The translations under genes were made by a program, and so were the position numbers. Under the pieces are notes generated by a model. The model saw only the letters and a program-made list of their open reading frames with translations, did not search any database and was not told the DNA's origin. A stretch of DNA of 50,845 bases from contig JADGNU010000003.1 of the NCBI GenBank assembly GCA_017883305.1, positions 1 to 50,845 on the forward strand, written 5' to 3'. This document shows positions 3,882 through 47,832 of the stretch, in pieces; within the stretch, counting starts at the first letter, position 1; the number at the start of each line of letters is the position of its first letter. This DNA comes from Candidatus Aminicenantota bacterium. GTDB lineage: Bacteria > Acidobacteriota > Aminicenantia > Aminicenantales > Saccharicenantaceae.

Positions 3882-5896
3882 TGAGAGCCCGCCTTGCGGA
3901 TAACGAGATTGAGATAGGGGTCGACGGCGGCTCTGTAGCCAGGAGGCAGGAAGGCCGTCGATTCCGGGTCGATGATGAGGGCCGGCCCCGGGAGGACATT
4001 GCCTGGCCTAAGCTTTGACCTGTCGTAGACCGACCCTTCGCGGACGGCCCGACCGGAGTGGATCGCCTGTGTCTTGACGAGCGCCTGGGGGTCCAACGAT
4101 GCGGCCCTCGGCTCGCGCCTGAGAGGGATCTTCGGGGTCATAGCCACGGCCTTGATCCGGAGATTGACGATCTCGACCGGCCGGCGGTCGTGCCGGTAAG
4201 AATAGAAGCGCTTGTGGAGCCGGTGGAAGCTTTCGAGGAAGGCCTGCCCGAGAGTCCGTGCTTTCCGGTATGGGACATCGATCTCGTAGGACTGCCCGGC
4301 GTAGCGGCAATCGAGCGAACGTTCGAGAACGATATCTGATGCCAGGCCGTCTTCGGCCATGTCCCGGCGCGCTTTCTCTTCGAGCTTCCGGAATTCGGAT
4401 TCGAGCTGGAATAAGCCGATCTGGGCGTCCGTTCTCATGAGGGACTTGGCGTAATCCTTGACCGGGTCCGACACGAGCAGGCCGAAGGCCGAAAGCACTC
4501 CCGCGTTGCGCGGCACGAGAACCGTGGGCATGCCCAGATGGGCGGCCATCTCGATCGCGTGCATGCCGCCCGCCCCTCCGAAGGAGAAGAGCGCGAAAGC
4601 GCGGGGATCGATGCCGCGCTCGACGGATATGACGCGGATGGCTTTCTCCATGTTGGCGTTGGCGATGGCCACGATGCCGAGGGCCGTCTCGATCGCCGAT
4701 TTCCCGATCGCCCGGCCCAGCCGGGATACGGCATCAAGGCTGCGTTCAGGGAAGATCCTCATTTTGCCGCCCAGGAAGAAACCCGGGTCCAGGCGGCCGA
4801 GGCAGAGGTTGGCGTCGGTCACGGTCGGAAGCTCGCCTTTGCCGTAGCAGGCCGGCCCGGGATCGGCGCCCGCGCTCTGAGGTCCGACCCGAAGCGAGCC
4901 GCCGCGATCGGTATAGGCGATGGAGCCGCCGCCCGCTCCGACCGAGTGGATGTCGATGATGGGCAGCCGAATAGGGAAGTCGCCGACCCGGCTCTCGTGC
5001 GTCCGCCGAATGCCCCCTTCGATGAGGGACACGTCGGTCGAAGTGCCGCCCATGTCGAAGCTGACCACGTTGGGGAAACCGGCCGCCTTGGCTAGGATGC
5101 GAGCCCCGACGACTCCTCCGGCCGGTCCCGAAAGGGCCGTTCGGATGGGCTCAACCCGCGCCCGGAGCGGAGAGATGTAGCCTTCGTTCGATTGCATGAT
5201 GCGCAGGTCGGCCCGGCCGAGGCGGCGGTCAAGCTCGCCGAGATAACGGTCCATAACCGGCATGAGATAAGCGTTGACGGCCGTCGTCGAAGTCCGCTCG
5301 AACTCTCGATGCTCGGGCAGGAGACGGCTCGAGATGGTGAAAAGGAGGCCCGACCGCTCGAGCTCCCGCGCCACGATCTCCTCGTTCTTGGGATTGGCAT
5401 AGGAATGGAGGAGACAAACGGCAACCGCCTCGGCCCCCGTCTTTTTTATCTTCTGGACGATCCGGCGGACCTCGGCCCGGCTGACCGGCTGCTCCACGCG
5501 CCCGGAGGCGAGGGTCCTTTCCTTCAGCCCAAATCTGAGAGCGGCCGGGATAAGTTCGAACCGGCTTTCGGGTTGAAGGGCATAAAGATTCCGACGGGTC
5601 TGCCGGCCGATGGCCAGGACGTCCTCGAATCCCGCTGTCGTGATCAGGGCGATGTGGCCGCCTTTGCGCTGGAGGAGGGCATTGGTGGCCACGGTCGTGC
5701 CGTGGACGATGAATGCGGCGGGGGAGTCCTTCAGGATATCGCGGACGCCTTCGAAGATCGCCAGCGACGGGTCCTGCGGGGTCGAGAGGACTTTCCGATT
5801 GGAGAGCCGGCCGTTCCGCCAGATGACAAAGTCCGTGAACGTTCCGCCGGTATCCACCCCGATGCGGATTGAGCCGGAATCCTTTTGGCGTCCCAT
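3878..5896 (-). CDS. hyuA: Hydantoinase A/oxoprolinase family protein
   Basis: IRIGVDTGGTFTDFV, GPAGGVVGA, SFDMGGTSTDVSLI, FGGAGGMHA motifs. Confidence 0.92.
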   Translation of the reverse strand: MGRQKDSGSIRIGVDTGGTFTDFVIWRNGRLSNRKVLSTPQDPSLAIFEGVRDILKDSPAAFIVHGTTVATNALLQRKGGHIALITTAGFEDVLAIGRQTRRNLYALQPESRFELIPAALRFGLKERTLASGRVEQPVSRAEVRRIVQKIKKTGAEAVAVCLLHSYANPKNEEIVARELERSGLLFTISSRLLPEHREFERTSTTAVNAYLMPVMDRYLGELDRRLGRADLRIMQSNEGYISPLRARVEPIRTALSGPAGGVVGARILAKAAGFPNVVSFDMGGTSTDVSLIEGGIRRTHESRVGDFPIRLPIIDIHSVGAGGGSIAYTDRGGSLRVGPQSAGADPGPACYGKGELPTVTDANLCLGRLDPGFFLGGKMRIFPERSLDAVSRLGRAIGKSAIETALGIVAIANANMEKAIRVISVERGIDPRAFALFSFGGAGGMHAIEMAAHLGMPTVLVPRNAGVLSAFGLLVSDPVKDYAKSLMRTDAQIGLFQLESEFRKLEEKARRDMAEDGLASDIVLERSLDCRYAGQSYEIDVPYRKARTLGQAFLESFHRLHKRFYSYRHDRRPVEIVNLRIKAVAMTPKIPLRREPRAASLDPQALVKTQAIHSGRAVREGSVYDRSKLRPGNVLPGPALIIDPESTAFLPPGYRAAVDPYLNLVIRKAGSQ

Positions 5897-46621: not shown

Positions 46622-46652
46622 CCGGACGCCCTTTCTCCTCGCTCATCATGCC

Positions 46653-47105
46653 GCGGCGATTCTTCACGCCCCTCTGAGTCAGGCCCTCTGGCAGATCTCG
46701 CTGCATGGACTTCTCGGCTCGGGGCGTGCCGCTCCGTCGGGTCGCGGGTTTGGCCCGGCGCGCCAAACCCGCTCGGATCCGGGCCTCGCTCTCCTCTGGA
46801 TCCGTGCCCGCTTCGGCCCTCCCACGCCCTCCTCCGGGCATCGCCCCTGCGCCACCTTCCTTAACGCTCGATCTGCCCATCAAGTCCGGAATGTCGAGCG
46901 ACTCCACTAGAGACAAGACGACCGCTGAAACTGGGGTCGAGGGGGTCATCTGAGCGAGCATAAGCGGTGATTTAGCCGGTCCGGAGTCGGATGAGGGCAG
47001 TTTCAGAGGAAACCGCCAAAACGTGTTTGAGCGAGGCGTAGCGCACGCCGAGCGAGTTGTTTTGGCGCCGAGTCCGACGAACGGACCGGCGTGAAGAATC
47101 ACCGC
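46653..47105. repeat. Noncoding element bounded by 18-bp inverted repeats, rich in internal hairpins (possible MITE-like element or structured RNA)
   Basis: GCGGCGATTCTTCACGCC at 46653-46670 versus GGCGTGAAGAATCACCGC at 47088-47105 (17/18 complementary); 11-bp perfect stem 46744-46754/46762-46772; nested arms 46964-47105. Confidence 0.55.
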
Positions 47106-47130
47106 AGCGAACGAAGATGATCCCCGAGGG

Positions 47131-47832
47131 CTAATTGATGATGCGGAGCATGCGGCTCCAGCGGGCCTTGGGGACGAAGCTGACCAGCTTCTTGAGGCGG
47201 TCGCGGATCCCGGTCTTCTGCCAGGCATCCCGCTCGGCCTTGTAGGAGAAATAGATGACCCAGGGCCGGCCCTTGATGGACGCCAGCGGCACGAAACCCC
47301 AGTAGCGGCTATCCATGCTGTTGTCGCGGTTGTCGCCCATGACGAACAGGTTCCCGGGCGGCACGGTCACGGGGCCATAGTTGTCGCGGATGACGTCGTC
47401 GTAGTTGTAGAAATCGTTCTTGGAGTTGACGTGGCTGTCGATGTGGACCTTATAGGGCTCGTCCAGCGGCTTGTCGTCGACGTAGACCTGCTTGTCCTTG
47501 ACCTCGACCTTCTGTCCCTCGAGCGCGATGACGCGCTTGACGAAGTCCTTGGTCAGGTCCTTCGGGTACTTGAAGACGACGATATCGCCCCGCGCGATCG
47601 GCTTATGGGGCAGGATCGTGCCCTCGAGCGGCAGGAGGGGCCTGGTGTAGGCGAGCTTGTTGACGAGCAGAAAGTCGCCGACGAGGAGGGTCGGCTCCAT
47701 GGAGCCGGTCGGGATCTGAAAGGCCTGGACGACGAAGGTCATGACGAAAAAGACGAAAACCGCCGTCTCGGCGATCAGCTCGAAGTATTCCCTGAAGAGG
47801 CTCTTGTCTCTTTTCTTCTTGTCCTTGTCCAT
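47131..47832 (-). CDS. lepB: Signal peptidase I
   Basis: PTGSMEPTLLVGDFLLVNK, KRVIALEGQKVEVK, VMGDNRDNSMDSRYWGFVP. Confidence 0.97.
   Translation of the reverse strand: MDKDKKKRDKSLFREYFELIAETAVFVFFVMTFVVQAFQIPTGSMEPTLLVGDFLLVNKLAYTRPLLPLEGTILPHKPIARGDIVVFKYPKDLTKDFVKRVIALEGQKVEVKDKQVYVDDKPLDEPYKVHIDSHVNSKNDFYNYDDVIRDNYGPVTVPPGNLFVMGDNRDNSMDSRYWGFVPLASIKGRPWVIYFSYKAERDAWQKTGIRDRLKKLVSFVPKARWSRMLRIIN

Follow-up and report, generated by a model that had tools for sequence, protein, structure and literature searches.

The 50,845-nt stretch of Candidatus Aminicenantota DNA analysed here, hereinafter the window, contains about 450 bp between lepB and glgA (46653-47105) that encode no recognisable protein. 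In the initial annotation, this block was taken for one element bounded by near-perfect 18-bp inverted repeats, either a non-autonomous mobile element or an undescribed structured RNA. The locus raises the question of what the block consists of, where its units begin and end, and what their conserved folding is for.

Composition of the lepB-glgA gap

The sequence features described initially are all present. The 18-bp inverted arms, GCGGCGATTCTTCACGCC at 46653 and GGCGTGAAGAATCACCGC at 47088, pair with one mismatch, and extend with their flanks to 21 bp at 90%. The arms of the 11-bp hairpin are perfect (46744-46754 and 46762-46772), the 7-bp pair comprises CGGATCC at 46774 and GGATCCG at 46798, and the AATC(A/G)CCGC box occurs three times, at 46653(-), 46964(-) and 47097(+). 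Mechanical ORFs do cross the block, and no supported gene lies in it. The density of complementary arms is also borne out, with a top inverted-repeat score of 20 in 46640-47130, whereas 60 sequences simulated with a first-order Markov model averaged 11.2 and reached at most 18. RNA folding gives z = -2.7 for the + strand and z = -3.4 for the - strand versus dinucleotide shuffles.

The block is nevertheless not a single element of about 450 bp. The lepB-glgA gap is composed of two adjoining members, facing opposite ways, of a dispersed family of modular repeats, together with a stray M1 arm (Table 1). Specifically, 26 aligned copies from the genus have their ends near the equivalents of 46930 and 47130, where the covariance model R1 (151 positions, 47 pairs) scores 185 bits. 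Homology among the copies runs from about 46930 to 47129, 24 bp past the right 18-bp arm, while the left part of the block belongs to a separate family, M4. One 450-bp transposon ending in the 18-bp arms is thus rejected; the proposed termini are two occurrences, on opposite strands, of a single internal M1 arm motif, one inside M1+M2 and the other a remnant.

In M1+M2, the outer arms GAGGGG.TCATC..GAGCATAAGCGGTGATTTAG and GTGAARAATCACCGCAGCGA..GATGATCCCCGAGG enclose M2. GAGCAT is invariant in the left arm, and the right arm extends beyond the presumed right terminus, of which the AATCACCGC box is a part. M2 comprises a GTTTC..GAAAC hairpin and a CGCCAAAACG..GTTTTGGCG stem with a conserved internal loop. 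The outer ends of M4 are our reading of the copy alignment. At the left edge, a match to the M1 right arm (46667-46650, 89% identity) is read from its sequence as a putative remnant of another M1-type element. Comparable tandem remnants lie beside M1 copies in genome G009.

Table 1. Features of the block between lepB and glgA (window coordinates; for complete elements the strand is the folding strand)
Feature	Position	Strand	Description
M1+M2 complete element	46930..47130	+	on the lepB side, its start adjoining the lepB stop codon
M1 left arm	46933..46975	+	ends in GAGCATAAGCGGTGATTTAG; 91% to arm consensus
M2 inner module	46988..47076	+	97.8% to genus consensus
M1 right arm	47091..47129	+	100% to arm consensus; contains AATCACCGC box
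M4-type element	about 46690..46877	-	outer helix GGCAGATC / GATCTGCC
M4 internal hairpin	46744..46772	-	11-bp hairpin of the initial annotation, in M4 core
Stray M1 right-arm motif	46653..46670	-	left 'terminus' of the initial annotation

Conserved fold and strand preference

Each element is a long imperfect hairpin of concentric layers. An outer helix leads through a conserved GAGC/GCGA internal loop to an inner helix, which ends in an exchangeable tip. M1, M2 and M4 all contain the facing motifs GAGC and GCGA, which may form a tandem G.A internal loop.

Across the 26 M1+M2 copies, 97.4% of the cells of a 60-pair structure are paired. Compensatory double changes occur at 21 of the 60 pairs (shuffled mean 8.4; reached by 0 of 500 shuffles), and the covariation score is 0.198, versus 0.096 shuffled and at most 0.052 with partners slid; the copies are related, and so the shuffles are not probabilities, whereas the slid controls retain relatedness. 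In those pairs that are predominantly Watson-Crick, G.T fills 52 cells over 25 pairs, whereas A.C fills 9 cells over 9 pairs. In all 26 copies, the aligned strand is more stable than its complement with RNA parameters (mean -94.7 versus -78.1 kcal/mol), and the same holds in 26 of 26 with DNA parameters, a comparison that favours this strand somewhat because the structure was derived on it. Neither a double-stranded cruciform nor template-switch repair of quasipalindromes is expected, by itself, to produce strand bias of the G.T-over-A.C type. What is preserved therefore appears to be the aligned strand in single-stranded form, as RNA or as ssDNA.

In M4, double changes affect 10 of 38 pairs, 7 of them in the 12-pair hairpin (8 copies), and the minus strand of the core is the more stable in 8 of 8. 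The G009 variant has a similar layout with largely different helix sequences, and a weak strand preference (7 of 11).

Copies and distribution

The window comes from a metagenome-assembled genome (MAG), 90% complete, whose 358 contigs total 2.93 Mb. A BLAST search of this genome with the block returns 34 matches, the block itself included, and the matching places differ from one part of the block to another. Contig ends carry many of the copies, which is expected because repeats break assemblies. A pattern scan found carriers among Candidatus Aminicenantes MAGs, one of them labelled Acidobacteria. Among 40 genomes searched, M1/M2 is present in all 13 of the genus, own genome included (more than 150 matches), with one weak match elsewhere in the order. 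Model R1 likewise finds matches in 13 of 13 genus genomes and, beyond the genus, two weak matches in one of 21 family genomes (genus g2). M4 copies occur in 10 of the 13. Copy numbers from searches are lower bounds throughout, those from R1 because the best candidates per genome were scored; repeat densities from 20-kb stretches, which were picked partly around known matches, are biased upward. An exact 20-base core motif, searched as one pattern, gave no match in viral contigs, on which viral spread was rejected.

No description of such Aminicenantes repeats was found in the open-access literature, most subscription papers lying outside the scope of that search. The repeats apparently form an undescribed family, spread across a single genus of uncultured Aminicenantes, that keeps its folds as its sequences change.

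Modularity and nesting

The layers of these hairpins combine in several ways. Between M1 arms stands M2, M3 or a short tip proper to M1; the alternative arm M1' is found with M2 or M3; and M3 also occurs at an M4 tip (L007). RAYT-type REPs, GGGGACATGTACC..GGTACATGTCCCC, lie inside an M3-containing element (L010), inside M4 (L204) and inside an M1-type block (L084). In one copy (L016), M3 is flanked by two unlike arms, one M1' and one M4, a mixture whose sequence suggests recombination between copies.

A composite of M1+M2 with a short inverted M1 beside it occurs in both G004 and G005 (L054, L057). The G005 composite is upstream of glgA, and synteny between the two places is not established.

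Genomic context and turnover

Of 49 scored copies, none falls in a predicted ORF, the ORF calls being approximate and made with a simple codon-score script. Between co-directional neighbours, 15 copies are co-oriented and 16 opposed, which makes it unlikely that their role depends on the neighbouring transcript. A terminator or 3'-UTR element was rejected on this random orientation. The neighbouring genes are probably incidental hosts.

The repeats turn over between close relatives. G004 and G005, 94-97% identical in the stretches compared, differ in the palindromes that they carry at intergenic sites. Downstream of lepB, the spacing depends on the genome compared, from about 10 bp at one extreme to nested repeats several hundred bases long at the other, and the gap between glgA and the NUDIX gene (nud) beside it in relatives is also variable. 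At the inspected sites, no clean pair of occupied and empty insertion sites with a target duplication was found. A small RNA-binding-protein gene with neighbouring repeats is present in G004:C23 (L136:3500-4460) and missing at the matching site of G005:C21 (L166).

Among the compared genomes, lepB and glgA adjoin only in the contig of the window. Relatives have a recD2-like gene after lepB and nud beside glgA, with these repeats often lying in between. A second nud-glgA start exists in the same MAG, on contig C261; it is 94.5% identical over 146 bp and diverges near 46625-46632, close to the start of the repeat block (46625-47131 of the window versus G000:C261; L021, L242). The recD2 of this MAG begins another contig. 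With these arrangements in view, the chances seem about even that the juxtaposition is a repeat-mediated rearrangement or a mis-join of two loci that both carry repeats; on the other side, C261 could belong to a strain that was assembled together with this one, and the adjacency could be genuine. This question concerns the juxtaposition and is compatible with a mobile-repeat explanation. The reality of the two elements is unaffected by it, because each has many independent copies.

Candidate mobilising enzymes

Y1/RAYT genes are widespread in the order. M modules lie beside none of the ten Y1 genes examined (G000, G002, G004, G010); two of the ten are adjoined by GGGGACATGTACC-type REPs, and others by different inverted repeats. 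G005 has copies and no detected Y1 gene, while genus g4 has Y1 genes and no copies. In the alignments, GTAG is present only in the M2 apical loop of many copies, and no tagged short unit was recognised at the ends. Membership in a RAYT-REP system was rejected on the gene association. Movement by a resident reverse transcriptase was also rejected, since RVT_1 is found in 3 of 13 carriers and reverse transcriptases are missing in 10 of 13. Classical IS-derived MITEs carry a target-site duplication and share their terminal inverted repeats with an autonomous IS. In the Aminicenantes elements the outer arms are inverted, and at the inspected sites neither a duplication nor an autonomous partner was seen.

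Two RAYT-like Y1 genes stand amid GGGGACATGTACC..GGTACATGTCCCC REP clusters, at L158 ~5368-5682 (G010) and L159 ~5071-5388 (G004), and these loci are apparently REPtrons of the genus. A further repeat, CTAAATACACTTAATT / AAGTGTATTTAGTTGTGTGTCACC, occurs near a Y1 gene (L155 flanks) and at the start of the recD2 contig (L241:1-120).

Discussion

Part of the initial proposal stands: the units are multicopy, dispersed, intergenic and covarying, and belong to no Rfam family, whereas one element with inverted termini does not. The region is neither single-copy nor devoid of covariation, and no conserved protein runs through it, so the observation that drew attention to the locus holds. The block probably represents two neighbouring members of a genus-specific, high-copy set of modular quasi-palindromic repeats that are non-autonomous mobile DNA resembling REPINs/BIMEs. 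Such elements would depend for their movement on an enzyme acting in trans, which would recognise one strand in its single, folded form in the way that TnpA_REP does with REPs, and further elements would gather in or beside existing hairpins, which would give rise to the nested architecture. Weighed against mobile DNA are the lack of a precise occupied/empty site and of a linked enzyme, and the weak strand preference in G009. Vertical inheritance also explains part of the distribution, for example M1 directly after the lepB stop codon in several species, and compensatory changes could come partly from template-switch repair of quasipalindromes. A bolder form of the proposal, which we hold only tentatively and consider rather doubtful, is that the mobile hairpins make up a superfamily, layered as 'Russian dolls', which swaps helices and tips and keeps its internal-loop motifs fixed, and that a non-RAYT enzyme would recognise the folded GAGC/GCGA, as ssDNA or RNA, and add hairpins to old tips.

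If the folding strand were transcribed, the covariation could instead reflect the function of a dispersed structured RNA, acting as a regulator or as the RNA part of a mobile system. Strand-specific covariation with tolerance of G.U and the invariant internal loops agree with this, but folded ssDNA would be expected to give the same strand bias, and an RNA of this kind would have to account for each genome having dozens of copies, at unrelated intergenic sites and in random orientation. Moreover, Rfam covariance models, HEARO included, matched the elements credibly at neither gathering nor relaxed thresholds, on which a known Rfam RNA was rejected; a structured-RNA explanation is unlikely overall. 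It is very improbable that the elements act in cis on the mRNAs of their neighbours, as a terminator, 3' stabiliser or attenuator comparable to some BIME functions. The recurrent position of M1 immediately 3' of lepB would fit such a role, but the copies are randomly oriented to flanking genes, the strand of M1+M2 that folds better in the window is antisense to both lepB and glgA, and in G005, G006, G009 and G012 the lepB site either is empty or has repeats of other kinds.

The preferred reading, mobile DNA, places the family near several known systems. REPINs and BIMEs are REP doublets that form hairpins and are linked to RAYT (PMC3116915, PMC8266576). Like them, the Aminicenantes elements are high-copy, dispersed, extragenic inverted doublets forming long hairpins with compensatory changes in the stems, and they imply a single-strand form (PMC3116915, PMC8266576). 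They differ in being much longer (140-200 bp plus inserts), in their layered build, with exchangeable helices and tips and fixed internal loops, and in that no examined RAYT gene is flanked by copies and no GTAG-tagged short REP unit was recognised in the alignments. CGTC-tagged palindromic repeats have been reported without a dedicated transposase (PMC3733652); they are short tagged hairpins, and on inspection the CGTC tag was not recognised in the Aminicenantes elements. Some IS elements insert into REP sequences (PMC1525189; ISPpu9, PMC8450116). The nesting described here resembles these systems in that repeats serve as landing sites for more mobile DNA, but the inserted units are small non-coding hairpins, not ORF-bearing IS elements. 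The new aspect of the Aminicenantes family is its layered, tip-exchanging architecture. The double-hairpin elements of organellar genomes are also mobile, non-coding hairpins, much shorter, and the likeness is by analogy only.

Palindromic repeats are abundant in bacteria, and how they spread is poorly understood. With a strand-resolved covarying structure, conserved loops, and tip swaps and nesting across a whole genus, it becomes possible to ask what recognises folded repeats, and the family allows the question of how hairpins accumulate within hairpins. In the Aminicenantes genomes themselves, the repeats appear to fragment assemblies and may rearrange chromosomes.
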